Assembly: GCA_031279895.1 (NCBI GenBank)
Contig: JAITHR010000203.1
Location: 1-15,384, forward strand
Source of the DNA: Spirochaetaceae bacterium
GTDB taxonomy: Bacteria; Spirochaetota; Spirochaetia; Treponematales; Breznakiellaceae
Direction of reading: 5' to 3'
Length of the DNA stretch: 15,384 nucleotides
The stretch's first letter is position 1; each line of letters opens with the position of its first letter. Shown here in pieces: positions 1 through 15,384 of this stretch. The position numbers were made by a program, and so were the translations under genes. Below the pieces are notes generated by a model that ran no database searches, had not been told where the DNA came from, and worked only from the letters and a program-made list of their open reading frames with translations.

Positions 1-338
1 ATATCCTGGCCGAGACCGCCGGCTTTACCCCGCCCGCGCTTCTGCGGGAGCTTGTGGTGTGCGCCGAGGCGCGGGGACGCGGGCGCCTGCGGTTTCGCGG
101 CATGATTTGCGTTATCGACACGCTGCGTTTTCTCAAGCTATTCGCGGCTGCCGTTTCCCTGTACGAGCAGGCCGCGTCAGCGGATTGCTTCGTGCTTTCC
201 AAGGCCGCGCTTGCGGAGCCGGAACATATTCAGGATATTCAGGAGATACTCGGCACAATCCGCCCCCTAGCGCCGGTATTTCTTCTGGAAAAGAACCCCC
301 TTTCATTCAAAGCCATAAGGGAATCCCTCCTCAAATAA
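1..338 (+). CDS. CobW/G3E-family P-loop GTPase, C-terminal part (5' end outside window)
   Basis: The frame is open from base 3 to a TAA at 336-338 and gives about 111 residues. Seen: a motif ETAGFTPP, which matches the E-T/S-G-x-x-x-P switch motif of COG0523/CobW GTPases, and about 50 residues later ADCFVLSKAAL, in the position of the guanine-specificity motif (usually NKxD). Here it is degenerate, with SKAAL. It continues to a short IRPLAPVFLL stretch that matches the last strand of the GTPase domain and then stops, so the separate CobW C-terminal domain is missing and this is a short, GTPase-only member. Family knowledge: G3E proteins are metal-cofactor chaperones or insertases. The metal cannot be read from this fragment. 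The Walker A part lies outside the window. The stop is followed at once by a repeat element whose CCGTC-TCC-GACGG hairpin could serve as a transcription terminator. Family call fairly sure, role unknown. Confidence 0.72.
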   Translation, partial: ILAETAGFTPPALLRELVVCAEARGRGRLRFRGMICVIDTLRFLKLFAAAVSLYEQAASADCFVLSKAALAEPEHIQDIQEILGTIRPLAPVFLLEKNPLSFKAIRESLLK

Positions 339-445
339 CCGCCGTCTCCGACGGTTTCAAAAGCTTCCCGCTAAGCGGCTCAAAGCGGACGTTGTCTGCT
401 TTGTCGCGGGATCGGGAAGCCGTTTAAAAAAGCCGGAGGCTGCGG
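339..445. repeat. MITE-like hairpin-ended repeat element, about 107 bp
   Basis: The left end reads CCGCCGTCTCCGACGG, then TTTCAAAAGCTTCCCG. The right end, read in reverse complement from 445, is CCGCAGCCTCCGGCT, then TTTTTTAAACGGCTTCCCG. These are imperfect terminal inverted repeats of about 35 bp around a core of about 40 bp. Each end holds a 5-bp stem with a 3-base TCC/GGA loop. It starts directly after the stop codon of the upstream GTPase. Copies of about the same build occur at 3402, 4241, 10881 and elsewhere. No ORF of its own. Confidence 0.7.
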
Positions 446-1095
446 CCATGCTTAAACAGCCGGAGGCTGCGCGAAGCGCAGCAGCGCCTGGGGCTGTGCC
501 ACCTGCCGCCGGCGGGGTGTTGCACCATTACGAAACAACAGGCGGCCATGCTTAAACAGCCGGAGGCTGCGTGTCGGGGATGCGTGTCTCCAGAGCGCGG
601 AGCGGTGTCCCTAAAACGCGGAGCGGTGTGTCTAAAACGCGGAGTTGTGGTGCCGAAGCGGGGTGGTGTGTCGTCAAAATGTGGGGCGGGTATGTGGACT
701 GAATAACGTTGAGGTGCGGCGCGGGAAGCTTATGAAACCGTCGGAGGCTGCGCGAAGCGTAGCCGCGCCTGGGCAGCACTGACTCGCTCACCGGACACGG
801 TGTTGCACCGCTTTGAAGCAACAGGCGGCCATGCTTAAACAGCCGGAGGCTGCGCGAAGCGCAGCCGCGCCTTAACAGCAGCCAGCGAAGTAAATGGACA
901 AGGTGTTGCACCACTCGGAAGCAACAAGCGGCCATGCTTAAACAGCCGGAGGCTGCGGCCATGCTGAAGCCGTCGGAGACGGCGCGAAGCGTAGCCGCGC
1001 CTGGGCAGCACTGACTCGCTCAACGGACAGGGTGTTGCACCATTCGGAAACAACACGCGGCCATGCTTAAACAGCCGGAGGCTGGGCGGAGGCTG
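446..1095. repeat. Cluster of interspersed hairpin repeat modules filling a 780-bp gene gap
   Basis: The gap between the GTPase and the peptidase has no credible gene. It holds repeated blocks, all in one orientation: AAACAGCCGGAGGCTGCG (about 435, 555, 838, 941, 1071), a GCGAAGCGTAGCCGCGCC block (about 751, 855, 987), and a GGTGTTGCACC module followed 9-10 bases later by CAACA (about 516, 799, 901, 1030). The last can fold as a TGTTG/CAACA stem. A half copy of the MITE-like right end (GGAAGCTTATGAAACCGTCGG) lies near 725-745. The order of blocks is partly conserved, giving an imperfect higher-order repeat. The peptidase start follows 25 bp after the last hairpin. Confidence 0.75.
582..686. 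repeat. Degenerate 21-bp tandem array, 5 units
   Basis: Units begin at 582, 603, 624, 645 and 666. The second and third are almost identical (CGGTGTCCCTAAAACGCGGAG versus the same with GTGTGT in place of GTGTCC), the first matches in most positions, and units 4-5 are strongly decayed. No clear palindrome is left. Because 21 is a multiple of three, the minus strand reads a seven-residue repeat (RVLDTPL, RVLGTPL), which I regard as a by-product and not a protein. Its period equals that of the arrays at 3883, 4522 and 10480. Confidence 0.6.
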
Positions 1096-1119
1096 CGGGT
1101 ATGAAGGGAAAGGGAAAAC

Positions 1120-2385
1120 GTGTATGCTTGGCGGGCTATGAAGGAAAAAATCTTTAGGTATATTGACGGGTGCGAGGCGCTGGCTGTGGAGCTTGAGACC
1201 GAATTAACCAGACGTCCCGCGGTTTCCCCGCAGTCAGGCGGCGAAGGAGAGCTTGAGAAGGCGCTCTTTCTTGAAACATGGCTTAAACAGAAGGGCGTAA
1301 CCCACCTTGAGCGCTATGACGCGCCGGATCCGAAGGCAAAAGGCGGGGTGCGCCCCAACCTGACGGCAACGGTTCCCGGGGCCGCGGATAATACGCGGCT
1401 CTGGATTATGAGCCACCTTGACGTGGTGCCGCCCGGGGAGCTTTCCCAGTGGGCAAGCGACCCCTGGACCGTGGTGAGAAAGGACCGGCGCATCATCGGG
1501 CGGGGCGTTGAAGACAACCAGCAGGGGCTTACCTCGTCGGTGCTGGCGGCGCTGTCCCTTATTCACCAGGGCATAACCCCGCCGCATACGGTAAAACTCC
1601 TCTTCGCGGCAGACGAGGAAACCGGCAGCGATTACGGGGTGGGGTGGCTCCTCAAACAGCCCGGGGTTTTTCGGAAAGACGACGCGGCGCTTATACCGGA
1701 CAGCGGGGATCCTCTGGGGGAAACCATCGAGATTGCCGAGAAGAACCTCCTCTGGATGAAGTTTACCACCACCGGCGTCCAGACCCACGGCTCCCGACCG
1801 TGCCAGGGGGTCAACGCCCACCTTGCGGGCGCGGCGCTGGCTCTGGCGCTCCACCACGGGCTTTCCGAGAAGTTTCCGGCACGGGACGCGCTCTTTGAGG
1901 CGCCCGGTTATTCCACCTTCGAGCCGACCAAACAGGAAGCCAACGTGCCGAATATCAACACCATTCCCGGTGAAGACGTCTTTTGTATGGATATGCGGAT
2001 ACTCCCGCGCTATCCCCTCAAAGACGCGCTTGCGGAGATTGACCGGATTACGGCGGACGTCGCGGCAAAGTACGGGGTTGCCGTTAAGAGCGAGGTTGTC
2101 CAGAGCGCCCAGTCCAAAACCACGCCGGACGACGCGCCGGTGGTGGCGCTCCTTGCCCGCGCTATTCGGGAGGTATACGGCACGGAGCCGCGAACCGTCG
2201 GTATCGGCGGGGGAACCATGGCCGCGCCGCTCCGCAACGGGGGAATAGACGCCGCGGTGTGGTGCCGGCTTCAGGACCAGGCGCACCAGCCGAATGAATA
2301 CGCGGTGATAGACCACATACTGGGAGACGCGAAGGTTATGGCGCTCCTCATGCTCTCTGACCGTGAACATTATAAGGCGCGTTGA
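1120..2385 (+). CDS. M20-family zinc metallopeptidase (ArgE/DapE/dipeptidase type)
   Basis: A 421-residue protein of normal length for the ArgE/DapE/CPG2 family, which hydrolyses the amide bond of small acylated or peptide substrates with a two-zinc site. Zinc ligands and catalytic residues can be followed in order: SHLDVVPPG (H99, D101), GRGVEDNQQG (bridging D132), ADEETGSDYG (general base E166, ligand E167), IPDSGDP (D194) and DQAHQPNE (H389). The dimerisation/lid part lies between about 205 and 320. It is not possible to say from the sequence whether the substrate is N-acetyl-amino acid, succinyl-diaminopimelate or a dipeptide. The GTG at 1120 is taken as start because AGGGAAAGGG lies just upstream; an ATG at 1138 (MKEKIF) is an alternative that loses only six residues and would also fit the family. 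The 3' end overlaps the next gene by 23 bp, so the two are probably co-transcribed and translationally coupled. Confidence 0.88.
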   Translation: MYAWRAMKEKIFRYIDGCEALAVELETELTRRPAVSPQSGGEGELEKALFLETWLKQKGVTHLERYDAPDPKAKGGVRPNLTATVPGAADNTRLWIMSHLDVVPPGELSQWASDPWTVVRKDRRIIGRGVEDNQQGLTSSVLAALSLIHQGITPPHTVKLLFAADEETGSDYGVGWLLKQPGVFRKDDAALIPDSGDPLGETIEIAEKNLLWMKFTTTGVQTHGSRPCQGVNAHLAGAALALALHHGLSEKFPARDALFEAPGYSTFEPTKQEANVPNINTIPGEDVFCMDMRILPRYPLKDALAEIDRITADVAAKYGVAVKSEVVQSAQSKTTPDDAPVVALLARAIREVYGTEPRTVGIGGGTMAAPLRNGGIDAAVWCRLQDQAHQPNEYAVIDHILGDAKVMALLMLSDREHYKAR

Positions 2386-3448
2386 GGACCTGCCGGAACC
2401 GCTCCGCGCCGGCGTACTGCCGGAAGAGGCGGCGTACCTCCGGCGCCTCGGAGAAGAGCCGGCTTTACGCGGCATACCGCTCTTCGGGGTAACGCCCCAC
2501 TTCGCGTCCCTTGCGGGATCCGACGCGGCGGACCCCCTGCGCCGCCAGTTCTTTCCCTCGCCGGCGGAGGCGGCGCCGGACCCCTTTGCCCTCGCGGACC
2601 CGCTGGGCGAGGAGGCGCACCGAAAGGCCCCGCGCCTTATCCGTCAGTACGAGGATAGGGCGCTTCTCCTTGCAAGCGGGGAGTGCGCCGGCTATTGCCG
2701 GTACTGTTTCCGCCGGATATGGGCGCGGAAGGATACGGGGTTCATCGACGATACGCGCCTTGCGCCGGTTCTCGCGTACCTTGCCCGCCATCGGGAGATA
2801 CGCGAGGCGCTCATTTCCGGCGGGGACCCGCTTACCGCGCCGGACGGGGCTCTGGACCGGCTTCTCGGTTCCCTCCGCAGCGTGAGACCGGACCTGCGCC
2901 TGCGGCTCTGCACCCGCGTTCCGATTACGTTTCCCCAACGGTTCGACCGCGGCCTTCTGGATCTCCTGAAATCCTACCGGCCCCTGCGGATGGCGGTCCA
3001 CATCAACCACCATCGGGAACTCTCGCCGCCGGCGCGGGAGGTTCTGGGCGCCTGCGCGGACGCGGGCATTCCGGTCCTCACCCAAACCGTGCTGCTCCGG
3101 GGGGTCAACGACGACGCGGAAACGCTGGCGCGTCTTTTTGCGGCGTGTGTTGACGCGGGGCTTTCCCTGTACTACCTGTTTCAGCTTGACACTGCCCAAG
3201 GCACCGCGCATTTTCGGGTTGACCTTGCGGACGGGCTTGCGCTTTACGCGAACCTCGCGTCCCGGGGCGCGGCGCTGCCGGTATACGCGCTAGACCTTCC
3301 CGGCGGCGGCGGCAAAATACGCCTTCACGAGGGCGTTATTGCCGGCAAAAGAGAGGGCGCCTACCTCCTCAGATCCCCCTCCGGCATCCTGTACCCCTAC
3401 CCCGCAGCCTCCGGCTGTTTTAAACAGCTTCCCGCAAAGCGGCTGTAA
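2363..3448 (+). CDS. KamA/EpmB-type radical SAM aminomutase
   Basis: A 361-residue protein of the lysine 2,3-aminomutase family. Seen: radical SAM cluster motif CAGYCRYC (C108, C112, C115) binding the 4Fe-4S cluster, ALISGGDPL (SAM-binding GGD), a TRVPITFPQRF segment, VLLRGVNDD, and LPGGGGK with K318 as the expected PLP lysine. The two aspartates that hold the lysine substrate in known aminomutases appear to be present (D276 in FQLDTAQG, D311 in ALDLPGGG). The length is closer to EpmB (lysyl-EF-P modifying, about 340 aa) than to catabolic lysine 2,3-aminomutase (about 415 aa). No EF-P or EpmA gene is in view, so free lysine versus EF-P lysine as substrate is open. The GTG start at 2363 has no clear ribosome site and lies inside the end of the peptidase gene, which suggests coupling. 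The last 14 or so residues (from PAASGCFKQL) and the stop are encoded by a repeat element that runs into the gene. Confidence 0.85.
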   Translation: MNIIRRVEDLPEPLRAGVLPEEAAYLRRLGEEPALRGIPLFGVTPHFASLAGSDAADPLRRQFFPSPAEAAPDPFALADPLGEEAHRKAPRLIRQYEDRALLLASGECAGYCRYCFRRIWARKDTGFIDDTRLAPVLAYLARHREIREALISGGDPLTAPDGALDRLLGSLRSVRPDLRLRLCTRVPITFPQRFDRGLLDLLKSYRPLRMAVHINHHRELSPPAREVLGACADAGIPVLTQTVLLRGVNDDAETLARLFAACVDAGLSLYYLFQLDTAQGTAHFRVDLADGLALYANLASRGAALPVYALDLPGGGGKIRLHEGVIAGKREGAYLLRSPSGILYPYPAASGCFKQLPAKRL

Positions 3449-3507
3449 GTACGCAAAGACCGCTTTGAGGCGCTTAGCACGACGCTTATGAAACCGTCGG
3501 AGACGGC
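3402..3507. repeat. MITE-like hairpin-ended element overlapping the 3' end of the KamA-type gene
   Basis: The left end is CCGCAGCCTCCGGCTG, then TTTTAAACAGCTTCCCGC. The right end in reverse complement is CCGTCTCCGACGG, then TTTCATAAGCG. It has the same build and almost the same length (106 bp) as the element at 339. The first 47 bases are translated as the C-terminus of the upstream gene, whose TAA (3446-3448) lies inside the element core. The left hairpin followed by TTTT resembles a terminator, but it sits before the stop codon. Confidence 0.68.
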
Positions 3508-3680
3508 CTGCGGAGCGCCCCTAAGCAGTCGCGTCTAGTTATACGCGACCCGCGCTTATATGATTCCGCACCTCGCTTACTTCGTATACATCGCAGTTCT
3601 GTGCGATATGCTGCTGTTTGTTACCGTTTGGCGTCGTATTTTACGGCATCCGGCAGCCTCCGCCCGCCGGCGGCGGGTGG

Positions 3681-3809
3681 CCAGCCTCCGGCTGTTCCAA
3701 AAGCGTCCTGCGGAGCGCGGCACAGCGGACGACAACTGCTTACAGGCGCGGGGCTGGAAGCTTATGTGCCTGCCGCGGCTCGCGGCCCGCCGGCGGGCGG
3801 AGACGGCGG
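3681..3809. repeat. Divergent hairpin-ended repeat element
   Basis: The left end CCAGCCTCCGGCTG, then TTCCAAAAGCGTCCTGCG, matches the other elements. The right end keeps GGAAGCTTATG but then holds a GC-rich block with CCCGCCGGCGGGCGG in place of the usual hairpin. A CCCGCCGGCGG block also lies just to the left (3663-3677). The stretch 3508-3680 outside the elements is AT-richer, has no convincing gene and no recognised site. Confidence 0.5.
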
Positions 3810-3882
3810 TTATTACTCATTACCGCGTAACGACTTATCAGTAGCAAGAGACGGTTCTGCCCCGCGTAAGACCGGCGTAAAA

Positions 3883-4155
3883 GGTATACCTTTTAGAGCA
3901 TCCGGTATACCTTTTACGGCATCCGGTATACCTTTTGGAGCATCCGGTATACCTTTTACGGCATCCGGTATACCTTTTGGAGCATCCGGTATACCTTTTA
4001 CGACAAAAGGTATACCTTTTACGACAAAAGGTATACCTTTCAGGACAAAAGGTATACCTTTCAGGACAAAAGGTATACCTTTTACGACAAAAGGTATACC
4101 TTTTACGGCAAAAGGTATACCTTTTATGACAAAAGGTATACCTTTTGGGACGGTG
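3883..4155. repeat. 21-bp tandem array of a perfect palindrome, 13 copies
   Basis: GGTATACC starts at 3883 and recurs every 21 bp without a slip (3904, 3925, 3946, 3967, 3988, 4009, 4030, 4051, 4072, 4093, 4114, 4135). In most units it is extended to AAAAGGTATACCTTTT, a perfect 16-bp palindrome; the spacer varies. Units 1-5 have spacers ending GCATCC, alternating between two versions (ACGGCATCC and GGAGCATCC), while units 6-12 have spacers ending ACAAAA or GCAAAA. Two blocks with different histories are therefore visible. Three reading frames stay open through it. Because the unit is palindromic and seven codons long, both strands read GIPF every seven residues. There is no ribosome site or family match, so I do not call a gene. 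Confidence 0.95.
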
Positions 4156-4240
4156 TAAAAACCGAAACGGATAGAAATGAGTAATGTAGTTTCATATAGT
4201 ATCATGCGTTAGGTACGTTGGTCTTATTGTTCAACAGTCT

Positions 4241-4347
4241 CCGCCGTCTCCGACGGTTTTAAACGGCTTCCTGTGTAGCGCTCCGAACAACACGCCGCCG
4301 CGTACCGCGCACAAAAACGCGCCGCTCCCAAACCGTCGGAGACGGCG
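4241..4347. repeat. MITE-like hairpin-ended element, 107 bp
   Basis: The left end is CCGCCGTCTCCGACGG, then TTTTAAACGGCTTCCTG. The right end is CCCAAACCGTCGGAGACGGCG, an inverted copy of the left hairpin. The length is the same as the element at 339. The core (about 4280-4325) resembles the core of the element at 12629, with shared words such as CCGAACAAC and GCCGCGTACC or similar. It stands between the 21-bp array and the repeat cluster before mnmG. Confidence 0.68.
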
Positions 4348-4770
4348 CGAGAGCGTAGCCGCGTCTTAGCAGCAACCAGACTGCTCACCGGACAGGGTGT
4401 TGCACCACTTGGAGGCAACAGGCGGCCCTGCTGTGCCTCCGGCGCCGCCGGCGGACACGGTGTTGCACCACTCTGAAACAACACGCGGCCATGCTGAAAC
4501 AGCCGGAGGCTGGCCTTCAAACGCCGGCGTTTAGCCTTCAAACGCCGGCGGGTAGACTCTAAACGCCGGCGTTTAGCCCTGAAACAGCCGGAGGCTGCCG
4601 CCTGAAAGGTGCGGAGGCTGCGGCTCATAACAACGCACCGATTCCAAACCGTCGGAGGCTGCGCGAAGCGTAGCCGCGCCTAAGTAGCAATAAGCCCGCT
4701 AACCGGACACGGTGTTGCACCATTATCAAACAACAGTGCTGAAACAGCCGGAGGCTGCGGAGACGGCGGA
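4348..4770. repeat. Cluster of interspersed hairpin repeat modules upstream of mnmG
   Basis: Blocks in the same orientation as at 446-1095: GCGAGAGCGTAGCCGCG near 4347 and 4668, GGTGTTGCACC near 4396, 4458 and 4711 with CAACA 9-10 bases later, and CAGCCGGAGGCTG near 4500, 4585 and 4745. No gene is supported. Open frames that run from here into mnmG are made of repeat sequence only. Confidence 0.72.
4522..4597. repeat. Short 21-bp palindromic tandem array, 3 copies plus a related fourth
   Basis: CGCCGGCG occurs at 4522, 4543 and 4564, exactly 21 bp apart, in the context AAACGCCGGCGTTT (a perfect 14-bp palindrome in the first and third copies). The next position in register, 4585, holds the general repeat hairpin CAGCCGGAGGCTG, so the array continues in phase into the common interspersed module. 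Confidence 0.8.
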
Positions 4771-4807
4771 GGCTGGTAAAAAGGCTTTGGCAGAAATACA
4801 ATGGGTT

Positions 4808-6679
4808 ATGGACTATGACTGTATTGTGGTGGGCGGGGGACACGCGGGGCTTGAGGCGGGCGTGGCCGCCGCGAGGCTGGGGCTTGAAACGCTCCTTATT
4901 ACCCAAAACCCCGACCGGATTGCCGCGCTTTCGTGTAACCCCGCGATCGGGGGGCTTTCAAAGGGCAATCTGGTGCGGGAAGTGGACGCGCTCGGCGGTG
5001 AAATGGGAAAACTGATTGATAAAACCATGATCCAGTACCGGATACTGAACCGGTCGCGGGGTCCGGCGGTGCAGGCGCCCCGCGCCCAGGCGGACAAAGA
5101 GGCGTACCAGCGCGCTGCCCGCGCCGCGGTGGAGGCCCAGCGCGGTCTTTCGGTCTTTATGGACACGGTGGTTGACCTTCTTGCGACCGATGCCGGCGCG
5201 GAAGGGGTTATAACCGAGCGCGGAGGCCGCATTACGGCGCGGGCGGTTATTCTTGCGACAGGCACTTTCATGGAGGGGAAGATTTTCATAGGCGAGTACG
5301 ACGCGCCCCAGGGGAGGCTGGGGGAAAGCGCGGCGCTGGGGCTTGGGACGCGCCTTCGGGAGCGGGGGTTTCCGGTGGGGCGCCTTAAAACCGGCACGCC
5401 CGCCCGCGTTGCCGGGGACACGATCGATTACGCGGCACTTGAGCGACAGGACGGCGAGGAGGCGGCGCCGTTTTCCTTTGACGCGGAAGACGGGGAGACC
5501 GCGTCCCGCCCCCGCGTTCCCTGCTGGATAACGTATACGAACGCCCGAACCCACGGGGTCATTCGGGCGCATATCCACCGCTCCCCCCTGTACGGCGGCA
5601 AGATACACGGCGCCGGGCCGCGCTACTGCCCGTCTATCGAGGATAAGGTGGTGCGCTTCCCGGATCGGGAGAGGCACCCTGTCTTTATCGAGCCCGAGGG
5701 TCTTGGCACGAACGAGATGTACCTCAACGGCGCCTCAAGCTCCCTTCCCGAAGACGCGCAGCGGGATTTTATCCGCACCATACCGGGGCTTGGGGAAGCG
5801 CGTATCGTGCGTCCGGCCTACGCGGTTGAGTACGATTATCTTGACCCGCTCGACCTGTATCCCACCCTTGAGTCCAAGCGTATGGCCGGTCTTTTCGTGG
5901 CGGGCCAGACGAACGGCAGCTCCGGCTACGAGGAGGCGGCCTCCCAGGGCCTTATGGCGGGCATCAACGCGGCGCTGAAACTGCGCGGGGAACCGCCTTT
6001 CGTGCTGGGGAGGGCGGAGGCGTATATCGGGGTGCTGGTGGACGACCTTACCACGCTGGGAACCAAAGAGCCGTACCGGATGTTCACGAGCCGGGCCGAA
6101 CACCGGCTCATGCTGCGCCACGATACCGCCGATGCGCGGCTTACCCCCAAGGCGCGGGAACTCGGCCTTATAAGCGGGCGGCGCTGGGAGCGTTTTGAAG
6201 AGAAAAAAGCCGGCGTCGCGGCGATACGGGAACTTTTGCGGACGCGGCGCGTCTGTCATGCCGAGCGGGAGGCCGCGCTCGGCGCCCATAGCGGGGAGCC
6301 GCTGGAGCGGGCCGCGCTGGATCCCAAGGTGCCGTTTGAGGCCCTGCTGTCCGCCCTGGCGGAACCGTACCCGGCGCACTGGATTTCCCAAGCGCTGCTG
6401 GACATACGCTACGCGGGCTATATCGAGAAAGAGGCGCGTCTTGCGGCAAAGAGCGCCAAGCTGGATAGGATAAAAATTGCCCGCGATCTGGACTATGCGG
6501 CGCTGACCGGCCTTTCGTTAGAAGCGCGGGAGAAGCTCTCCCAGGTGCGCCCCCTGACAGTCGGCCAGGCGGCGCGGATACCCGGCGTCCGCCAGGGGGA
6601 CATCGCGCTCCTCATGGTCCTTAACCGCCCGCCCGCCGGCGGCGGAGGCACAGCAGGGCCGCCTGTTATTTCCGAATAG
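4808..6679 (+). CDS. mnmG: tRNA uridine-5-carboxymethylaminomethyl modification enzyme MnmG (GidA)
   Basis: A 623-residue FAD protein that with MnmE puts the carboxymethylaminomethyl group on U34 of tRNA wobble positions in the cytoplasm. Seen from the chosen start: dinucleotide-binding [10 protein letters not shown] (residues 9-18), LSCNPAIGG with the conserved cysteine C43, [18 protein letters not shown] with the second conserved cysteine C274, [18 protein letters not shown] (second FAD contact) and [14 protein letters not shown], all hallmarks of GidA. The length fits the family. The ATG at 4808 is chosen because [11 protein letters not shown] is the usual beginning. A TTG at 4787 has a better purine stretch before it (AAAAAGG), so a start seven codons earlier cannot be excluded. 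Sequence farther upstream is repeat. The last 16 or so residues (after LMVLNR) and the stop codon come from a repeat module; normal MnmG ends about there. The usual partner rsmG is not adjacent. Confidence 0.96.
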
Positions 6680-6943
6680 TGCAACACCGTCTCCGACGGC
6701 TTCAGCATGGCCGCCTGTTGCCTCCAAGCGGTGCAACACCGTCTCCGACGGCTTCAAACATGGCCGCCTGTTGTTTCCGAACGGTGCGACACCGTGTCCG
6801 ACGGCTTCAGCATGGCCGCCTGTTGTTTGAGAGTAGTGCAACACCGTCTCCGACGGCTTCAGCATGGCCGCTTGTTGTTTGAGAGTAGTGCAACACCCTG
6901 TCCGTTGAGCAAGTCAGTGCTGTTAAGGCGCGGCTACGCTCTC
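6613..6943. repeat. Tandem 52-bp repeat of hairpin modules after mnmG
   Basis: GCAACACC (GCGACACC once) starts at 6681, 6733, 6786, 6838 and 6890, giving spacings of 52, 53, 52 and 52 bp. Four units read GCAACACCGTCTCCGACGGC, then TTCAGCATGGCCGCCTGTTG, then a variable 8-12 base loop. This is the reverse complement of the GGTGTTGCACC module seen upstream of the plus-strand genes. The variable part lies between TGTTG and CAACA arms and falls into three versions. A divergent fifth unit leads into an AAGGCGCGGCTACGCTCTCG block at 6924-6943. The cluster begins inside the last codons of mnmG (from about 6629). Confidence 0.8.
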
Positions 6944-7077
6944 GCGCCGTCTCCAGTGCTTTGGAAACACTGCGTTGCGGCGAGTGGTTTGCCGCGCTTC
7001 GCAGGCCGCTTATGGAATCGTCGGAGACGGCGTGGTTCGGAGCGCGTGGCAGGAAGCTTATGAAACAGCCGGAGGCT
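6944..7077. repeat. Hairpin-ended repeat element(s) between convergent genes
   Basis: The left end CGCCGTCTCCAG, though damaged, is inverted relative to ATCGTCGGAGACGGCG at 7017-7032. A further GGAAGCTTATGAAACAGCC end closes at about 7077. It looks like two overlapping or nested copies that share the middle hairpin. The right end covers the last codons and stop of hydE, which is read on the minus strand. Confidence 0.55.
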
Positions 7078-8086
7078 GCCAGCCGGCAACATCGCCGCGC
7101 CCCATGTTCGGCACGAAGCCGAAACCCCGTATCCGGCCCTCCATACAGTACCGGCACTCGGCAGCTTCGTCTCCGGTGCAGATCTTGTTGTCATAGAGCG
7201 CGTAGAGTTTCCGTACTTCCCGCGGCGACAGGTTGGGCATAACCACGTTCGCGCCGGCCATAAGTCCCCGCTCCCGCCCCACGGGACTTATGGTTCCCAA
7301 GGCCGTGGTTGCCGGAATAAGCGCCTTGGGCAGGAGTAGGCGCGCAAGGGCCACCATGCGGAGGGTCTGCTCCAAGGTGCCTGCCGGATAGTTCCCGAAA
7401 GGCGTGTCCGCCTGGGGGATAAAGGGGCCGATACCTACCATGTGGGGCTGCAAATCCTGGAGAAACCGCAGGTCTTCCAAGAGGTGTTCCGGCTTTTGGA
7501 AAGGAGTCCCTACCATAAAGCCCGCCCCCACCTGGTAGCCGATGGTCTTGAGGGTATAGAGGCACTCCTTCCGCGCCCGGAGGCTCATGGAAGACGGGTG
7601 CATCATGGCGTAGTGTTCCTCGTCGGCGCTTTCGTGGCGCAAAAGATACCGGTTCGCGCCGGATCGGAAAAACGCCTCGTAGCTTTCCCGCGGGCGCTCC
7701 CCGACGGATACGGTTATGGCGTGGTCGGGATAGGCCCCGCGGATAGCCCGCAGGATCTCGACGACCCGCTCATCGGTAAAATAGGGGTCCTCCCCGCCTT
7801 GCAGCACGAACGTCCTGAACCCAAGGGAGTTCCCGACCTTACAGCTTTGCAGTATCTCGTCCAGAGACAGGCGGTATCGCGCCACGTTGGTATTGCTCCG
7901 GCGGAGGCCGCAGTAGTAGCAGTCGTTCTTGCAGTAATTGGTAAACTCCACAAGCCCCCGAAAATATACCTCGTTGCGGTAATGCTCGGCGCGAACCTTC
8001 CGGGCCGCCGCGAAAAGCTCCTCAGCCTCATCGGTATCCTCTGTGGTGATAAAACGGAGTATCTCCGCGTCAGTTATCTTGCACAT
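7058..8086 (-). CDS. hydE: [FeFe]-hydrogenase H-cluster radical SAM maturase HydE
   Basis: A 342-residue radical SAM protein. With HydG and HydF it builds the 2Fe subcluster of [FeFe]-hydrogenase; HydE works on the HydG product on the way to the dithiomethylamine bridge. Seen: CKNDCYYC (C52, C56, C59) for the SAM cluster, FVLQGGEDPYF (GGE motif), LLRHESADEEHY, and a C-terminal C-x7-C-x2-C (C303, C311, C314), the second cluster site known in part of the family. The ATG at 8086 is chosen because AAGGAG stands six bases before it. The frame is open 42 codons farther upstream, but that part is a duplicated intergenic sequence. The last residues (WQPPAVS) and the TAA are repeat-derived. It is the last gene of a minus-strand maturation operon, about 160 bp after hydG. 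Confidence 0.95.
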   Translation of the reverse strand: MCKITDAEILRFITTEDTDEAEELFAAARKVRAEHYRNEVYFRGLVEFTNYCKNDCYYCGLRRSNTNVARYRLSLDEILQSCKVGNSLGFRTFVLQGGEDPYFTDERVVEILRAIRGAYPDHAITVSVGERPRESYEAFFRSGANRYLLRHESADEEHYAMMHPSSMSLRARKECLYTLKTIGYQVGAGFMVGTPFQKPEHLLEDLRFLQDLQPHMVGIGPFIPQADTPFGNYPAGTLEQTLRMVALARLLLPKALIPATTALGTISPVGRERGLMAGANVVMPNLSPREVRKLYALYDNKICTGDEAAECRYCMEGRIRGFGFVPNMGRGDVAGWQPPAVS

Positions 8087-8091
8087 AGCCG

Positions 8092-8097
8092 CTCCTT
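8092..8097 (-). promoter_or_regulatory. Ribosome binding site that fixes the hydE start
   Basis: AAGGAG on the minus strand, five bases before the ATG at 8086. The alternative in-frame ATG at 8107 has only GAAAAG in front. Confidence 0.75.
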
Positions 8098-8129
8098 GCG
8101 CACTCATGCGCGTCTTTTCCGTGCGTTCC

Positions 8130-8248
8130 GGCGGCGTGTCCGGCACGTAAGCAGCCGAACCGCCAGCGGAACCACGGTAAAAAACCTCGCGCCGCGGCGG
8201 CGTGTTCGGCACAAGCCGTCAAACCGCCGCGGAACCACGGTAAAAAAA
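8130..8248 (-). repeat. Duplicated two-tier hairpin between hydG and hydE
   Basis: Two copies (8130-8184 and 8196-8248, 66 bp apart) share the ends GGCGGCGTGT and GCGGAACCACGGTAAAAAA. In the transcript each can fold with an outer GGCGG/CCGCC stem and an inner CGGC/GCCG stem, although the loop bases differ (TTGT in one copy, a nine-base loop in the other). In the copy next to hydG the outer stem can extend to nine pairs (CCGCGGCGG with CCGCCGCGG). The T-run lies on the 5' side, directly after the hydG stop codon, so it is not a standard terminator. It could be an mRNA processing or stability element, or a weak attenuator, that tunes hydE against hydG. Confidence 0.55.
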
Positions 8249-9682
8249 TTAGAAGAAGAAATCGCGCTGGCCCTGACGGATCTTTTCCACGTTCTGGCCG
8301 GTCTTGCCGCGGATTTTCTCATTGCCGATCGCGGGAATCTCCCGCGCAATCGCGTTCGCGGCTTTCCGCTTGAAAGTCTCGTCCCCGTAATCCATCGCGT
8401 ACTCGCAGAGCGTCATAAGCGCGTTCGGCAGGCACACGTTCTTTATCTCGCCGGACTTGGCAAGGCGCATGAACCGGTCCCCGGTGCGCCCGTTCCGGTA
8501 GCAGGCGGTACAGAAACTGGGGATGTACTCGTCGTCCATGAGTTCCGAGATGATAGAGAGGGCGCTCCGCTCGTCGTTGACGATAAACTGGGGGTTATCC
8601 GCCTTCTCCCGCCGCTCCCGTTTCGCGTACCCGCCGACTTCGGTACTGGACCCGGCGCTTATCTGGGAGATACCTATTTTGAGGAGCTTCTTGCGCATCT
8701 CGTGGTTCTCCCGCGTGGAGAGTATCATGCCGGTAAACGGCACCGCCAGGCGGATAACGGCCACGATTTTCTCAAAAGTGGCGTCGTCAACCAGCGCGTA
8801 GTCCGCCATATTCATCCCCGGCGCCGGACAGAGGCGCGGCACGGAAATCGTGTGGAACCCCACGCCGAAGCGCTCCTCAAGGTGTTCGTTGTGGATCATA
8901 AGCGCCAGGGTCTCAAAGTAGGGATCGGCCAGGCCGAAAAGCACGCCGCCGCCCACGTCGTCAATCCCCGCCTCCTGAGCGCGGTCAAACGCGGTGAGGT
9001 GGTAGGCGTAATCCCGCTTGGGCCCTGCCTGATGAAAGCGCTCGTAGGCGGGCCTATGGTAGGTTTCCTGAAAGAGGATATAGGTGCCGATGCCCGTCTC
9101 TTTGAGTTTCCGGTAATTCTCCACGGTGGTCGCCGCGATATTCACGTTTATCCGCCGGATTTCCCCGTTCTCGAACTTCATGTCGTAGATCGTCTTCATG
9201 CACTCAAGGACGTACTCAATGGGACACTCCTTGTCATGCTCCCCGGCTTCCATGGCGATGCGCTTATGCCCCATGGACTCAAGGATACGCACCTCTTCCC
9301 GCACCTCGTCCTGGGTGAGTTTTCTGCGTCCGAAACTGTGGCCGCAGTTGTAACTACAGTAGGCGCAGCGGTTGACGCAGTGGTCGCTTACATAGAGGGG
9401 CGCGAACATGACGATGCGGTTGCCGTAGATGTGCTGTTTGATTTTTCCGGCAACGGCGAAGATCCGCTCAAGGTGCGCCGGGTTGTCGCTTACAAGAAGT
9501 GCGGCGATTTCACGGTGGTTAAGGCCCTCAAAGCGGTCGGCCTTGTCAAGCGCCGCGGTAATAACCGCGTCGTCGGTCTGTTTTGCCGTTTCCAGCAGCC
9601 CTTCGATATACTCTTTATCAATAAAAACGGTTTCCGGGCTGTCTTTCGTCTTATGCCCGGAGACGACCGCGCTATTTGCCAT
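8249..9682 (-). CDS. hydG: [FeFe]-hydrogenase H-cluster radical SAM maturase HydG
   Basis: A 477-residue protein of normal HydG length. It cleaves tyrosine and delivers CO and cyanide as an organometallic iron synthon for the H-cluster. Seen: CVNRCAYC (C102, C106, C109) for the SAM cluster, SYNCGHSFGRRKLT, the AMEAGEHD segment (GGE-equivalent), CPAPGMN, and the diagnostic C-terminal C-x2-C-x22-C (C391, C394, C417), which carries the auxiliary cluster and separates HydG from ThiH. A good ribosome site, AAGGAG (9689-9694), stands six bases before the ATG. The start overlaps the end of the TM1266-type gene by 11 bp, which implies translational coupling. Order in the operon: small ORF, regulator, hydG, hydE. 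HydF is missing here and must be elsewhere. Confidence 0.97.
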   Translation of the reverse strand: MANSAVVSGHKTKDSPETVFIDKEYIEGLLETAKQTDDAVITAALDKADRFEGLNHREIAALLVSDNPAHLERIFAVAGKIKQHIYGNRIVMFAPLYVSDHCVNRCAYCSYNCGHSFGRRKLTQDEVREEVRILESMGHKRIAMEAGEHDKECPIEYVLECMKTIYDMKFENGEIRRINVNIAATTVENYRKLKETGIGTYILFQETYHRPAYERFHQAGPKRDYAYHLTAFDRAQEAGIDDVGGGVLFGLADPYFETLALMIHNEHLEERFGVGFHTISVPRLCPAPGMNMADYALVDDATFEKIVAVIRLAVPFTGMILSTRENHEMRKKLLKIGISQISAGSSTEVGGYAKRERREKADNPQFIVNDERSALSIISELMDDEYIPSFCTACYRNGRTGDRFMRLAKSGEIKNVCLPNALMTLCEYAMDYGDETFKRKAANAIAREIPAIGNEKIRGKTGQNVEKIRQGQRDFFF

Positions 9683-9944
9683 GGTGTTCTCCTTGTGTAA
9701 GTTCGCCGGATATGGCGGTTTTGACGGTTACTTCCGCAAGATTGCCTAATTTTCCGGTAAGGGCGTTAATATCGTCCAGTTCCCCCAGGAGGGTAATGGA
9801 GATAACCGCAAGATTGTCATTGTCAAAGGGAATGCCCATGCGCCCCTGCACAATGCCCTTAAATTGTCCGAGGGTCTCGTTAAACGCTTTCTGGCTAACC
9901 TGCGGGTTCTCCAGAATCGCGCCGACCACCGCAATTCTACTCAT
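9672..9944 (-). CDS. TM1266-type iron-only hydrogenase system regulator (ACT-like fold)
   Basis: A 90-residue protein. The pattern MSRIAVVGAIL, then FNETLGQFKGIVQGRMGIPF, then NLAVISITLLGELDDINALT, then GKLGNLAEVTVKTA matches the small ACT/NikR-C-like proteins described as iron-only hydrogenase system putative regulators, which sit beside hyd maturation genes in many anaerobes. It has no DNA-binding domain of its own, so if it regulates it probably senses a ligand and acts through a partner. Start supported by AAGGAAGG five to six bases upstream. It overlaps hydG by 11 bp and the small upstream frame by 8 bp. Confidence 0.88.
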   Translation of the reverse strand: MSRIAVVGAILENPQVSQKAFNETLGQFKGIVQGRMGIPFDNDNLAVISITLLGELDDINALTGKLGNLAEVTVKTAISGELTQGEHHGK

Positions 9945-10077
9945 GTTTTCCTTCCTTCTCTTTTTCTTTACGGATTCCGGTTTGAGGGGGTGCGGGCGAG
10001 GCGGGGAAACCCGACGCCCACAGGGTAATGACAGGCATTAACGCGCCCTCGCAGAACCAGAACAAATCTTGATTCAT
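9937..10077 (-). CDS. Possible 46-residue leader/small membrane peptide at the head of the hyd maturation operon
   Basis: The ATG at 10077 has AAGGA eight bases before it. The frame runs 46 codons and its TAG lies within the first codons of the TM1266-type gene (8-bp overlap, ACATGAGTAG). Residues about 5-27 are hydrophobic (LFWFCEGALMPVITLWASGF) and the C-terminus is strongly charged (KEKEKEGKHE), the look of a small inner-membrane peptide. I recognise no family. The charged tail is also what a purine-rich ribosome site gives when translated, so it may be a translational-coupling leader only, or no gene at all. Confidence 0.4.
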   Translation of the reverse strand: MNQDLFWFCEGALMPVITLWASGFPASPAPPQTGIRKEKEKEGKHE

Positions 10078-10138
10078 AAGGTAATTCCTTATCACACGGC
10101 CTTGGCAAGAATACTCTCGCCTTGCAATGACGGTATCT

Positions 10139-10166
10139 ATAGTAAATATAACCTTTCTTTTAAGAA
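10139..10166 (-). promoter_or_regulatory. Candidate promoter of the hyd maturation operon
   Basis: On the minus strand TTCTTA (10166-10161) is followed 16 bp later by TACTAT (10144-10139) in an AT-rich patch, about 60 bases before the ATG at 10077. The -35 match is poor. Placed here mainly because it is the only AT-rich stretch before the operon. Confidence 0.3.
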
Positions 10167-10188
10167 CGCGCAAGCTTTTTCCCCCGCC

Positions 10189-10400
10189 CAGCCTCCGGCT
10201 GTTCCGGCATGGCCGCAGCCTCCGGCTGTTTCAGCATGGCCGCAGCCTCCGGCTGTTTCAGCATGGCCGCCTGTTGTTTCCGAATGGTGCAACACCCTGT
10301 CCGGTTAGGGGGCCGGTTGCTACTACGGCGCGGCCCGTCTCCGACGGCTTCATAAGCTTCCTGCGAAGCGGCTGTAAGTACGCGAAGGCCGCTTTCGGGC
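10189..10400. repeat. 27-bp tandem hairpin repeat and half repeat element
   Basis: CAGCCTCCGGCTG starts at 10189, 10216 and 10243, spaced exactly 27 bp with GCATGGCCG between. This is the spacer seen in the other clusters, here without the GGTGTTGCACC module except once at the end (10272-10296, reversed). After 10334 a single left end of the MITE-like element follows (CCCGTCTCCGACGG, CTTCATAAGCTTCCTGCG) and its core, but no matching right end is found before the 21-bp array. Confidence 0.7.
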
Positions 10401-10479
10401 GGCGGTGTTTCTATGGGAGAAACCGCACTCCGCGCTTTGGCGGTCGGGGGTTTTGCTTTGGGCACACAGCTCCCTGTTT

Positions 10480-10857
10480 TGGCAGGACGTGTTTCCGTGA
10501 CGGAAATGCGTATTTCCAGGACGGCAGGACGTATTTCCGTGACGGCAGGACGTATTTCCGTGACGGAAATGCGTATTTCCAGGACGGAAATGCGTATTTC
10601 CAGGACGGAAGGACGTATTTCCGTGACGGAAATGCGTATTTCCAGGACGGAAGGACGTATTTCCGTGACGGAAATACGGATTTCTGTGACGGAAATACGT
10701 GTTTCCAGGACGGAAATACGTGTTTCTGTGACGGAAATACGGATTTCTGTGACGGAAATACGGATTTCTGTGACGGAAATACGTGTTTCTGTGACGGAAA
10801 TACGTGTTTCCAGGACGGAAATACGTGTCTCCAGGGCGGAAATACGTGTCTCTAACT
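10480..10857. repeat. 21-bp tandem array of a near-palindrome, about 18 copies
   Basis: Units start at 10480, 10501 and then every 21 bp to 10837 with no slip. The core is GGAAATACGTGTTTCC or GGAAATGCGTATTTCC, a 16-bp near-palindrome with GGAAA/TTTCC arms, followed by a short spacer (AGGAC or GTGAC). Variants are grouped: AATGCGTA and AGGACGTA types in the left half, AATACGTG and AATACGGA types in the right half, a sign of local block duplication. A seven-residue periodicity can be followed in decayed form left of 10480 to about 10396, so the array was once longer. Two plus-strand frames are open through it (TEIRVSV and DGNTCFQ heptads). No ribosome site or known family supports a protein. 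Confidence 0.93.
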
Positions 10858-10880
10858 CTCTATGAATAAAGGAGTTACTG

Positions 10881-11022
10881 CCGCAGCCTCCGGCTGTTTT
10901 AAACGGCTTCCTGCGAAGCGCGACAAAGCGGTCGTTGACAGCTTCGGGGCGCGGGGCTGTAAGCGGTCGTCGTCCGCTGTGAGGCGCTCTGCGGGAAGCT
11001 TATGAAACCGTCGGAGACGGCG
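10881..11022. repeat. MITE-like hairpin-ended element, 142 bp
   Basis: The left end is CCGCAGCCTCCGGCTG, then TTTTAAACGGCTTCCTGCG. The right end is GCGGGAAGCTTATGAAACC, then GTCGGAGACGGCG, an inverted counterpart of about 40 bp. The core is about 35 bp longer than in the 107-bp copies. This is the copy in which the terminal inverted repeats are easiest to see. Confidence 0.72.
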
Positions 11023-11140
11023 CGAGAGCGTAGCCGCGCCTCAACAGCAGCCAGCCCCCTAAACGGACACGGTGTTGCACCATTATCAAACAACAGGCGG
11101 CCATACTTAAAACAGCCGGAGGCTGTGCCACCCGCCGCCG
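11023..11140. repeat. Interspersed repeat module after the anti-sigma gene
   Basis: It holds GCGAGAGCGTAGCCGCGCC, AACAGCAGCCAGC, the GGTGTTGCACC module with CAACA (11069-11095), AAAACAGCCGGAGGCTG and CCCGCCGCCGGCGGG, in the order seen elsewhere. The anti-sigma stop (minus strand) follows within a few bases, so on that strand a CAGCC-TCC-GGCTG hairpin with TTTT stands about 20-35 bases after the stop and could work as a terminator. Confidence 0.7.
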
Positions 11141-11145
11141 GCGGG

Positions 11146-11646
11146 TTATTTTAGAAAACGTTGGGAGAACTCTTTGAGGTGGCTGCCGATGAAAATGGCG
11201 CCGTAACCGGTAAGCACGCACCCTATCGTCAAACCCACGGGCAAAAGAAACGACGACCCCTGAGAGGCGGCTACCTTGCTGAACTCCACGCCGAAAAACG
11301 AAGTGCCAAGGGAAATAAGCACGATAAAGCCGGTTACCACCCAGCCGCGAAACGATACGCCGGTGCACGGGTCCAACCCTTCGTCCGCAAGGCCCGGCGC
11401 GTCCCGCTCGTCCGCCTCTTCCGCGTACACGCGCTCCATGACCCGATCGGCAAAGGCCGGCGGTTCGGGGAAAAACTCGGACCCCTCGACCTCAAGGAGT
11501 TTCCACGCGGCTTTTAGTTTGCGCTCCTCCGCGGCGCAGCGGGGGCAGAAAAGCCGGTGCGCCTCCAGCCGCATCCGGTCGGCCAGAGAGATTTCGCAGG
11601 TTCCAAGCGCCTCGTATAGGGTGTCCATAAACTCGCGGCACGTCAT
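11146..11646 (-). CDS. Membrane-anchored zinc-finger anti-sigma factor (ZAS type)
   Basis: A 166-residue protein. Residues 30-37 (HRLFCPRC) give the H-x3-C-x2-C motif of zinc anti-sigma domains, which hold the cognate ECF sigma factor. A linker follows, then two hydrophobic segments at about 102-121 and 133-153, so the N-terminal domain should sit in the cytoplasm and the protein in the inner membrane as a hairpin. It has no extracytoplasmic sensor domain of any size, so the signal is probably sensed in or near the membrane, perhaps with the membrane protein encoded at the head of the operon. Its ATG overlaps the sigma stop as ATGA, the usual coupling that keeps sigma and anti-sigma in balance. 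Confidence 0.88.
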   Translation of the reverse strand: MTCREFMDTLYEALGTCEISLADRMRLEAHRLFCPRCAAEERKLKAAWKLLEVEGSEFFPEPPAFADRVMERVYAEEADERDAPGLADEGLDPCTGVSFRGWVVTGFIVLISLGTSFFGVEFSKVAASQGSSFLLPVGLTIGCVLTGYGAIFIGSHLKEFSQRFLK

Positions 11647-12218
11647 TCAACGCCCCCTTCTATAAGTTGTTTTAGTTTCTCCCGCAGCAGTTTCTTTGCC
11701 CGAAAGACATGGGATTTAATCGTATTCACCGGATACCCGGTGATAGCCTCGATTTCCAGATACGAGCGCCCGTAGAAAAAAAAGAGGTCCACGCAGACGC
11801 GGTAGCGCTCCGGTAGCTCCCGCACCGCCTCCCGCACCGCCTCTTTCACCATGTCCCGCAGGACGGCCCTCTCCGGCGCCGCACGCTCTTCGGCGCGGGC
11901 AGGCGGCCCGTCTTTCTCTTCCGCAAGGCTCTGGTACTCTTTTCTGCGGGTTACGCTGTTCACCGCCGTATTATACGCGATTTTATACAGCCACGTTGAA
12001 AAGCGGGACCGCCCCTCAAAATGCGCGAGTGCGCGGAACAGTTTCAGGAATACCTCCTGGGTGAAATCCGAAGCGTCTTCGGCGTTATGGAAAAAACTCA
12101 GTCCCATAGCATATACGGTTTTTTCATGCCGGTTTACTAAAAGCCGGAATAAATTCTTCTGTCCCGAGACGACCTCCGCGACGATCATCTGATCGTCAAA
12201 ATCGTCTCCCTTATTCAT
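11643..12218 (-). CDS. ECF (RpoE-like) RNA polymerase sigma factor
   Basis: A 191-residue protein. The sigma-2 domain is at about 25-95 (LLVNRHEKTVYAMGLSFF, DFTQEVFLKLFRAL, then SRFSTWLYKIAYN, the -10 recognition part). A charged linker of about 30 residues follows, and the sigma-4 domain lies at about 130-185 with helix-turn-helix SYLEIEAITGYPVNTIKSHV. Sigma-3 is absent and the length is normal for ECF factors. It is encoded between a small membrane protein and its anti-sigma factor, with 4-bp ATGA overlaps on both sides, so the three proteins are made together. No convincing autoregulatory ECF promoter was found by eye in front of the operon. Confidence 0.95.
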   Translation of the reverse strand: MNKGDDFDDQMIVAEVVSGQKNLFRLLVNRHEKTVYAMGLSFFHNAEDASDFTQEVFLKLFRALAHFEGRSRFSTWLYKIAYNTAVNSVTRRKEYQSLAEEKDGPPARAEERAAPERAVLRDMVKEAVREAVRELPERYRVCVDLFFFYGRSYLEIEAITGYPVNTIKSHVFRAKKLLREKLKQLIEGGVE

Positions 12219-12556
12219 CCGCTTCCGCCGCCTCGTTTTATCCGGTAATAAGCCAAAAGGCCGATCCCCATAGAGAGGGGGATTATCCCGCCCAAAAGCC
12301 CGAAACTGGCGCCCAGGCCCGCCGCGAGAAAGACGGTCAGGCCCGCGCCCACGCTACTCAGAAGCAATCCCGCAAGCAAACTAAACGAAAGGAGGTCGAA
12401 GCGGGGTTTTTGATACTGCCCCGCTTGAATGAGCAGCGTTTTGCGTTTGTGACTCCAGAGGAGGTAAAAAAATACCACAGTGGATCCCATCACAATACCC
12501 ACAATAGGAATAATAGCGATAATGACCGCGGCGGCGGTTGCCTGTTGCTGGCCCAC
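12215..12556 (-). CDS. Small three-helix membrane protein (DUF6249-like) heading the sigma operon
   Basis: 113 residues with hydrophobic segments at about 9-33, 55-79 and 83-103. The cytoplasmic loop between the first two (SHKRKTLLIQAGQYQKP) resembles the R/K-x-x-L-I-E-x-G loop of DUF6249-type membrane proteins often found beside ECF sigma genes; the family call is from memory of that pattern and only moderate. The start is GTG at 12556, with AAGGAG seven bases upstream. Its TGA overlaps the sigma start as ATGA. The operon position suggests a role in signal sensing or in stabilising the anti-sigma factor. Confidence 0.75.
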   Translation of the reverse strand: MGQQQATAAAVIIAIIPIVGIVMGSTVVFFYLLWSHKRKTLLIQAGQYQKPRFDLLSFSLLAGLLLSSVGAGLTVFLAAGLGASFGLLGGIIPLSMGIGLLAYYRIKRGGGSG

Positions 12557-12563
12557 AGCATAG

Positions 12564-12569
12564 CTCCTT
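12564..12569 (-). promoter_or_regulatory. Ribosome binding site deciding a GTG start
   Basis: AAGGAG on the minus strand, seven bases before the GTG at 12556. An ATG at 12561 is nearer, but it is out of frame and too close. Confidence 0.7.
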
Positions 12570-12585
12570 TTTTAATCTTGCTTTA

Positions 12586-12591
12586 AGTATA
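12586..12591 (-). promoter_or_regulatory. Candidate -10 box for the sigma/anti-sigma operon
   Basis: TATACT on the minus strand about 30 bases before the GTG. No good -35 hexamer stands 16-18 bp upstream, where the repeat region begins. Confidence 0.3.
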
Positions 12592-12610
12592 ACCCTCTCC
12601 GCCCCTTTTA

Positions 12611-12870
12611 CCAGCCTCCGCCCGCCGGCCAGCCTCCGGCTGTTTCAAAAGCTTCCCGCCACGCGCTCCGAACCACGACTGTCCGCGTACCACGCCGCGC
12701 CCCGAACAACGCGCCGCCCCTTACCACGCGCAGCAACGCAGTGTTTCCAAACCGCCCGTCGTTGCGCGAGAGCGTAGCCGCGCCTCAACAGCAACCAGCC
12801 CGCTCACCGGACAAGGTGTTGCACCATTAAGAAACAACAGTGTTTAAAACAGCCGGAGGCTGCGGGCGGA
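12611..12870. repeat. Last interspersed repeat cluster, with a decayed MITE-like element
   Basis: CCAGCCTCCG (12611), CCCGCCGG, then an element left end CCAGCCTCCGGCTG plus TTTCAAAAGCTTCCCGC from 12629. Its right end near 12741-12766 is degraded (CCAAACCGCCCGTCG in place of the hairpin). Then come GCGAGAGCGTAGCCGCGCC, the GGTGTTGCACC module with CAACA (12813-12838) and AAAACAGCCGGAGGCTGCGG. No copy is seen right of about 12880. The stretch 12881-12999 shows no gene I can support. Confidence 0.7.
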
Positions 12871-12999
12871 GGCTGCGGGGGAGTATTTTACGAGCTCTTG
12901 GAGGTAAGGTACGGCGGCTCGATATCGAGTATTGTTCTGAACTCGGTACCATCAAAGGGCGTGAGGGTATTTCCGGGTCCGGTTTTCTGTTACCGGCGG

Positions 13000-13119
13000 T
13001 CAGAACGGCGGTATATCGTCCTCAAACGTATCTTCTTTAATGCTCCGGTAACGGGAAACTCCGGGATATTTTTTCCCGTCGTATTCCTCCCCCTCTTTGC
13101 ATACCACGATACCGTCTGT
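13000..13119 (-). pseudogene. C-terminal remnant of a phage DUF669-like ssDNA-binding protein
   Basis: A 39-codon open stretch ending in TGA reads ...EEYDGKKYPGVSRYRS... and finishes with EDTFEDDIPPF. The G-K-K-Y core followed by an acidic tail ending in DDIP-x-F is typical of phage DUF669 proteins and resembles the SSB tail that docks replication proteins. Such genes follow the nuclease and ATP-binding genes in phage operons, exactly the order here. The N-terminal 100 or so residues are missing; an in-frame TAA lies just upstream. The match is short, so moderate confidence. Confidence 0.4.
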
Positions 13120-14538: not shown

Positions 14539-14556
14539 CGTTTTGAATACCTCATG

Positions 14557-15341: not shown

Positions 15342-15343
15342 TG

Positions 15344-15384
15344 CTACATTCCCTCATAACAGATGCCCAGTCGGACTTCTTTCC
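15344..15384 (-). other. Possible C-terminal end of a further upstream gene (partial)
   Basis: A minus-strand frame entering from the right edge reads KEVRLGICYEGM and ends in TAG at 15346-15344, just before the DnaC-like start. The tight spacing is what a phage operon would show. Too short to identify. Confidence 0.25.

Follow-up and report, generated by a model that had tools for sequence, protein, structure and literature searches.

The window, by which we mean the whole stretch of DNA that was analysed, comprises 15,384 bp (positions 1 to 15,384) of contig JAITHR010000203.1 from the Spirochaetaceae assembly GCA_031279895.1, which holds 1.88 Mb in 292 contigs and is 75% complete. The host organism is akin to termite-gut species through the family Breznakiellaceae, from which we infer a gut origin of the MAG. 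A tandem array of a palindromic unit lies between a KamA-family gene and mnmG, and further arrays of 21-bp units are found downstream:

2363..3448, + strand: gene of a KamA-family radical SAM protein, upstream neighbour, outside the element
3799..3809, + strand: GGAGACGGCGG, the left-hand arm of a perfect inverted repeat of 11 bp whose other arm is at 4241-4251
3808..3878, + strand: leader module, 18 copies in the genome, each followed by 21-bp units (E up to 0.01)
3812..3821, + strand: ATTACTCATT, left arm of an inverted repeat of 10 bp
3879..4151, + strand: array of 13 exact 21-bp units with the core GGTATACC, the putative expandable module
4152..4236, + strand: trailer module, found 8 times in the genome and always behind GGTATACC units
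4176..4185, - strand: right arm of the 10-bp inverted repeat
4241..4251, - strand: right arm of the 11-bp inverted repeat
4497..4596, + strand: 4.7 degenerate 21-bp copies belonging to the AAACGCCGGCG(TTT)-AGCCTTC family, a short array in which the phase jumps once
4802..6679, + strand: mnmG, downstream neighbour, outside the element, start codon uncertain
10487..10847, + strand: another array of this class, with 17 21-bp units, the palindrome GGAAATACGTATTTCC and the spacers GTGAC/AGGAC

The GGAAATACGTATTTCC array, whose palindrome is 16 bp long, sits between the hydG/TM1266 genes and an anti-sigma gene; hydE, hydG and a TM1266-family regulator ([FeFe] hydrogenase maturation) follow one another on the minus strand at 7058-9944. 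A 52-bp tandem repeat of 4.9 copies (6651-6904) begins in the 3' end of mnmG and continues into intergenic DNA. No Rfam family matched the window at the gathering score.

An earlier note on this DNA had described 13 palindromes at an exact 21-bp spacing, and this was confirmed: cores of GGTATACC start at 3883, 3904 and so on to 4135 (last base 4142), and each interval is exactly 21 bp. The chance expectation for GGTATACC in the window is 0.17, and 13 copies were reached in 0/200 shuffles. The same note had taken a 16-bp palindrome to be the conserved core, which holds for its inner part; the 8-bp GGTATACC is invariant and the 5-bp spacer varies, but the full 16-mer AAAAGGTATACCTTTT is perfect in 6/13 units only, ATCC replacing AAAA in five units (3900-4004) and TTTC standing at the end of two.

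The sequences on either side of the array recur in the genome. The 75 bases 3808-3882 have 18 copies, 13 of them followed by GGTATACC-type units and five by ACATYAATG-type units; at one copy (L114) the sequence is cut 25 bases after the leader. When the 89 bases 4148-4236 were used as the trailer query, eight copies were found, and the number of units was 1, 2, 5 and 13 at L104, L113, L106 and the window, respectively. A different trailer stands behind other copies of the element (L107, L109), and the leader had no match in five other genomes of the genus. The 10- and 11-bp inverted repeats around the window copy pair in the predicted fold, whose energies were computed without a shuffled control. 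Most other leader copies of the window type carry ATTACTTATT, with one mismatch, in place of ATTACTCATT, and letters resembling the GGAGACGGCGG arm also flank other intergenic repeats of this genome.

Arrays with this period are abundant in the genome. A set of 49 contigs not picked for arrays (C1-9, C40, C50 and every fifth of C100-C290 but one; 262,099 bp) was searched for tandem arrays of at least 2.8 copies, and the period was exactly 21 in 46/67 of them, the next period being 9 bp with eight arrays. A period-21 array is carried by 27 of these contigs, and if multiples of 21 are included, the count rises to 48/67 arrays and 2.9% of the 262 kb. All fetched contigs of the genome, including those chosen for GGTATACC, hold 72 period-21 arrays, which fall into 27 unit families when units are joined at 16/21 matching bases. 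The sequence AAAGGTATACCTTT alone has 138 copies in the genome. The MAGs are fragmented, and for 37/49 intergenic arrays one flank runs out at the end of the contig.

A check for absence in relatives gave a divided result. The paired GGTATACC pattern (at most two mismatches) occurs in 0/57 other genomes searched, many of them incomplete, but it is present in another Spirochaetaceae MAG (L005), the sole spirochaete found when genome contigs were scanned for the pattern, where eight GGTATACC or GGCATACC cores (GGYATACC) stand at 21-bp steps (2881-3028); and the class as such recurs, with new letters, in a sister species. The L005 array (2881-3048) consists of eight degenerate 21-bp units of GGYATACCTTTT within an open frame with KG[IM]P heptads. 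The L006 match, one pair on a contig from Clostridia, was disregarded. In the sister species (G005; MnmG 81% identical), 11/18 arrays have a period of 21 or its multiples and cover 4.9% of 44 kb. The 21-bp share of tandem arrays was 2/5 in G001 and 1/2 in G003, and no tandem array at all was found in G002 and G004 (28 and 46 kb). Counting multiples of 21, 3/13 arrays qualified among 20 other genomes of the family (261 kb) and 0/9 among 20 genomes from the other families of the order (272 kb). The mnmG loci of nine relatives contain 0 or 1 single GGTATACC, a comparison that says little because the KamA neighbour is missing from the fetched flanks of these relatives. A palindromic array of the CACATTAGCTAATGTG type upstream of mnmG in G008, which represents another genus of Breznakiellaceae, has a period of 22-23 bp and hence is not a member of the class (L133:1064-1190). 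Among the best-matching titles and abstract openings, from a search in which subscription journals were mostly outside the scope, none dealt with 21-bp arrays in spirochaetes; in PMC13067680, the word 'repeat' occurs once, and 'tandem' and 'intergenic' do not occur.

The earlier observation of an exact pitch free of insertions and deletions was supported, the pitch being held strictly. In three unit families, all intervals below 90 bp are multiples of 21 (164/164, i.e., 88/88, 57/57 and 19/19). Phase-tracking alignment gave 1441 substitutions to 4 phase jumps in the period-21 arrays, 583 to 25 in the remaining tandem arrays of these contigs (Fisher 2.8e-10) and 150 mismatches to 4 gaps in the leader copies (Fisher 0.004). 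The contrast is strong but not exact: the repeat finder breaks an array wherever an indel occurs, some control rows cover the same sequence, and the substitutions do not count as independent events. Where adjoining arrays switch from one unit family to another, the 21-bp phase appeared unbroken by eye.

The ends of the element are best seen in the sister species. The G005 arrays share a leader and a trailer, each with at least 40 copies (103 leader and 195 trailer candidates at first look), and a tag of the element end matched 168 times in G005, against at most one match in any of seven other genomes. In 18/21 distinct elements with leader and trailer, both ends match at least 85% of the end consensus AAGAGGCGCGAA(A)GCGCCGATAATT, in inverted orientation. 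The window copy, unlike these elements, is bounded by the 10- and 11-bp inverted repeats only. The number of 21-bp units at 37 trailer loci (32 distinct) of G005 ranges from 1 to 22, and the distance from leader to trailer in the 21 distinct elements leaves residues of 11-15 modulo 21 throughout, with 13/21 at residue 13. The cores of these elements include TTTGCTAGCAAA, CCGGTGAACCGG, CTTGGCGCCAAG, TTGGGGCCCCAA, CGCGTTACCGCG and TCTGCAAGCAGA. The assembly of the window itself contains, on contig C56 (L235), one complete element of the G005 type, with six TTTGCTAGCAAA-type units and both terminal repeats; either transfer or mis-binning would account for it. On G005 contig C9 (L236), TTTTCTTG-ACTA-CAAGAAAA units at 21 bp have a non-palindromic four-base centre and look like stem-loops.

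Across the elements of the sister species, symmetry and pitch seem to have been retained while the letters turned over. The two arms of the units are complementary at 578/936 positions in 117 distinct G005 units, compared with 402 ± 12 after shuffling, and at 53/66 positions in 11 family consensuses, compared with 29.2 ± 3.3 (0/5000 shuffles); the probabilities are indicative, since some units were re-registered by one base, the families were picked by core difference and shared descent inflates shuffle tests. In these 11 families, complementarity is 0.80 at the true dyad and 0.18-0.45 at shifted dyads, and four of the five arm pairs outside the centre vary between two or three kinds of Watson-Crick pair. 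At the central pair, complementarity is less frequent (6/11 families, a minority of units); a hairpin loop would explain this, and so would a loose dimer site. Self-complementarity relative to dinucleotide shuffles was 13.2 against 11.4 ± 0.5 for ten G005 units and 12.0 against 10.9 ± 0.3 for the 27 families of the window's genome, where many units are not palindromic. In the GGTATACC family, the three outer pairs are broken in 7/14 distinct units, and the inner eight bases are invariant. Covariation within arrays was looked for and rejected: double and single arm changes stand at 1:37 in the GGTATACC family, at 6:67, 5:45, 3:32 and 9:120 in other families of the same genome, and at 6:72 in five G005 arrays taken together, so that changes are mostly one-sided and covariation is seen between families of the one sister species only.

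Plasmid iterons and partition sites are repeated protein sites spaced at about two helical turns. The window array could be read as a binding array, in which a sequence-specific dimeric protein (operator, partition or nucleoid type) recognises GGTATACC on one face of the helix. The exact pitch and the invariant core suit such a reading, as do the many AAAGGTATACCTTT copies in the genome and the eight GGYATACC units of L005. It is nonetheless very improbable, as the pitch is common to 27 unit families and the sister species has other cores. The array is not a unique partition site because the genome holds 48 such arrays in 262 kb, with many different cores; an operator for one protein ought to have the same letters wherever the leader is shared, which does not hold for 5/18 copies. 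A partition or operator array has one conserved site with a cognate DNA-binding protein, whereas the site here changes between copies with the same leader. The reading of GGTATACC as a dedicated operator or partition site, and the earlier suggestion that this particular palindrome is under selection, are hence not supported; the absence of the paired pattern from 57 genomes also speaks against the latter, although L005 counts the other way.

A protein might instead disregard the core and sense pitch and dyad together with a TYNRRGRCNAAA-like box or with A/T tracts, and the array would then be a helically phased satellite read, for example, by a nucleoid protein or by the transposase of the element. 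The TYNRRGRCNAAA-like box is common to the 27 unit families of the genome (EM score 193, compared with 161 ± 5.5 for dinucleotide shuffles), indels are rare, and AA/TT steps are phased near 10.5 bp (mean z 0.84 over families that are not independent, with the 22-23-bp G008 unit included). On the other hand, the box-side spacer is the variable part of the window array, and the relatives taken together do not show the box (nine units, combined z 1.1; about 1.3 minus the G008 unit); it reached p=0.017 in a single G005 unit (L056), and a common box across species was given up, being significant in the window's genome but not in the relatives. The earlier suggestion of DNA curvature fits the window unit, for which the predicted bend is raised (p=0.035), but not the class (z 0.27, SE 0.19, in a wedge-based prediction), and intrinsic curvature was therefore rejected as a common property. 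A phased satellite of this kind is unlikely, if the most plausible of the alternatives. Somewhat more speculative is the view of a bacterial satellite selected for its geometry and not for its letters, in which a protein, be it a nucleoid protein or the transposase of the element, would recognise a dyad every two helical turns, and each of the two sister species would have arrived at this lattice anew with letters of its own. Rather improbable, too, is a neutral minisatellite, in which slippage or recombination in this lineage happens to make and homogenise 21-bp units. Units are indeed alike within arrays, a locus may have as few as 1 or as many as 22 of them, and most of the sampled relatives have few arrays; yet neutrality leaves one period for many different units unexplained, and it sits poorly with the scarcity of indels (a contrast itself weakened by array splitting), with the phase kept across unit switches and with the complementary arm changes between families.

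As 21 bp correspond to seven codons, a coding function needed careful testing. Open frames cross the window array on both strands, and the array could accordingly be taken for part of a gene for a heptapeptide-repeat protein (KGIPFVV / TTKGIPF). A protein search yields similar KG.PF heptads elsewhere, and the degenerate L005 array lies within an open frame. However, when families were placed by the common box, the best stop-free frame was open in 20/27 families and none in all 27, with strands set by an EM box alignment that may be wrong for some families; and 3/72 arrays are closed in all six frames. A three-base rhythm of variation reached p<0.05 in 1/36 arrays, and no clear synonymous excess was seen (mean best-frame z 0.97 for 55 arrays of the genome and 1.40 for six from relatives), in tests of low power, as the coding-looking repeat L030:2244-2801 itself gives p=0.36 for the three-base rhythm and z 1.6-1.9 for the synonymous excess. 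The position of the arrays is the stronger argument against coding: 49/51 lie outside ORFs scored by codon use with a home-made gene finder, although 65% of the sequence is inside ORFs, and two lie within. The arrays are probably non-coding as a class, and mostly intergenic; a heptapeptide-repeat gene, for which a consistent open frame and a synonymous bias were not found with these low-power tests, was rejected as a general account and is the least probable of the explanations considered. Two coding-looking repeats of 21/42 bp, L030:2244-2801 and L154:602-777, are unlike the rest of the class; the former is a KETDRRFKETDEQF-type coiled coil (KETDRRF array), and the latter lies within a scored ORF. 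P0001, a protein in the database, was predicted from the window array itself, and the predicted proteins P0002-P0007, with KG.PF heptads on other contigs, are perhaps translated arrays of a like kind. Gene callers can thus make probably false proteins from such arrays, which often lie at contig ends.

Pneumococcal BOX elements have a middle module of about 45 bp, whereas the families studied here have a middle unit of 21 bp. This unit keeps strict phase, is frequently a palindrome and can differ in sequence from one copy of the element to the next, and the elements occur in a spirochaete host, where they make up 3-5% of the sampled bases in two sister species. The resemblance to the modular dispersed BOX repeats (boxA-boxBn-boxC) of Streptococcus pneumoniae and S. 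suis lies in a fixed left module, tandem middle modules of variable number and a fixed right module, in terminal inverted repeats (here in the sister species), in predicted stem-loop folding, in large copies that can hold open frames on both strands and in a presence among few close relatives (PMC3049150). By analogy the element would work like a BOX element without being filed as one, the label BOX-like referring to its architecture only. MITEs and Correia elements are small and have inverted terminal repeats (PMC3049150). The present element may be called MITE-like for the terminal repeats in 18/21 G005 elements, the window copy having only its 10- and 11-bp inverted repeats, and it shares with MITEs the small size and the many copies, again in the sister species, but its interior is an expandable palindromic array, and neither an empty site nor a target-site duplication was found. 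REP sequences and BIMEs are high-copy extragenic palindromes of 20-40 bp, marked by a GTAG or CGTC tag and associated with RAYTs (PMC3733652); the present units are likewise abundant, mostly intergenic and often palindromic, but they line up head to tail with an unvarying step of 21 bp, between a leader and a trailer. As for a transposase of this kind, one Y1 transposase (PF01797) was found in the genome, on contig C185 (L148/L165), and it was not tied to the arrays; several different 21-bp arrays (15400-16185) lie at the opposite end of that contig. A TIGR-Tas array was rejected, as no Nop-domain Tas protein was found (PF01798, 0 matches in the 75% complete genome).

It is most likely, with a probability of roughly 0.7, that the window array is the part that can expand within a BOX-like or MITE-like intergenic repeat, which is dispersed, apparently does not code for protein and changes its central units by whole 21-bp steps. 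The plan of the element would be leader, (21-bp palindromic unit)n and trailer. Its modular build, a unit number from 1 up, the strict 21-bp register and, in G005, the turnover of symmetric units and the terminal inverted repeats are observed directly; that the element is mobile we infer, and as a non-autonomous element it would probably be moved by a transposase acting in trans, with central units gained and lost in whole 21-bp steps. Complementarity may be kept because single-stranded units make short stem-loops or pair with one another by folding back. For the constant pitch there are two candidate reasons, which may apply together: in a folded strand each unit could pair with every other, and, with a step of two helical turns, a protein would find every dyad on one side of the helix.

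Taken together, the data point to a BOX/MITE-like element with a middle module that stays constant in pitch and symmetry through the turnover of its sequence. If selection on geometry, tentatively considered above, were real, pitch and symmetry would be held over tens of units while the palindrome itself could be replaced wholesale. The element makes it testable whether short bacterial repeats persist for their geometry, be it dyads on one face or a regular fold-back, over their sequence.
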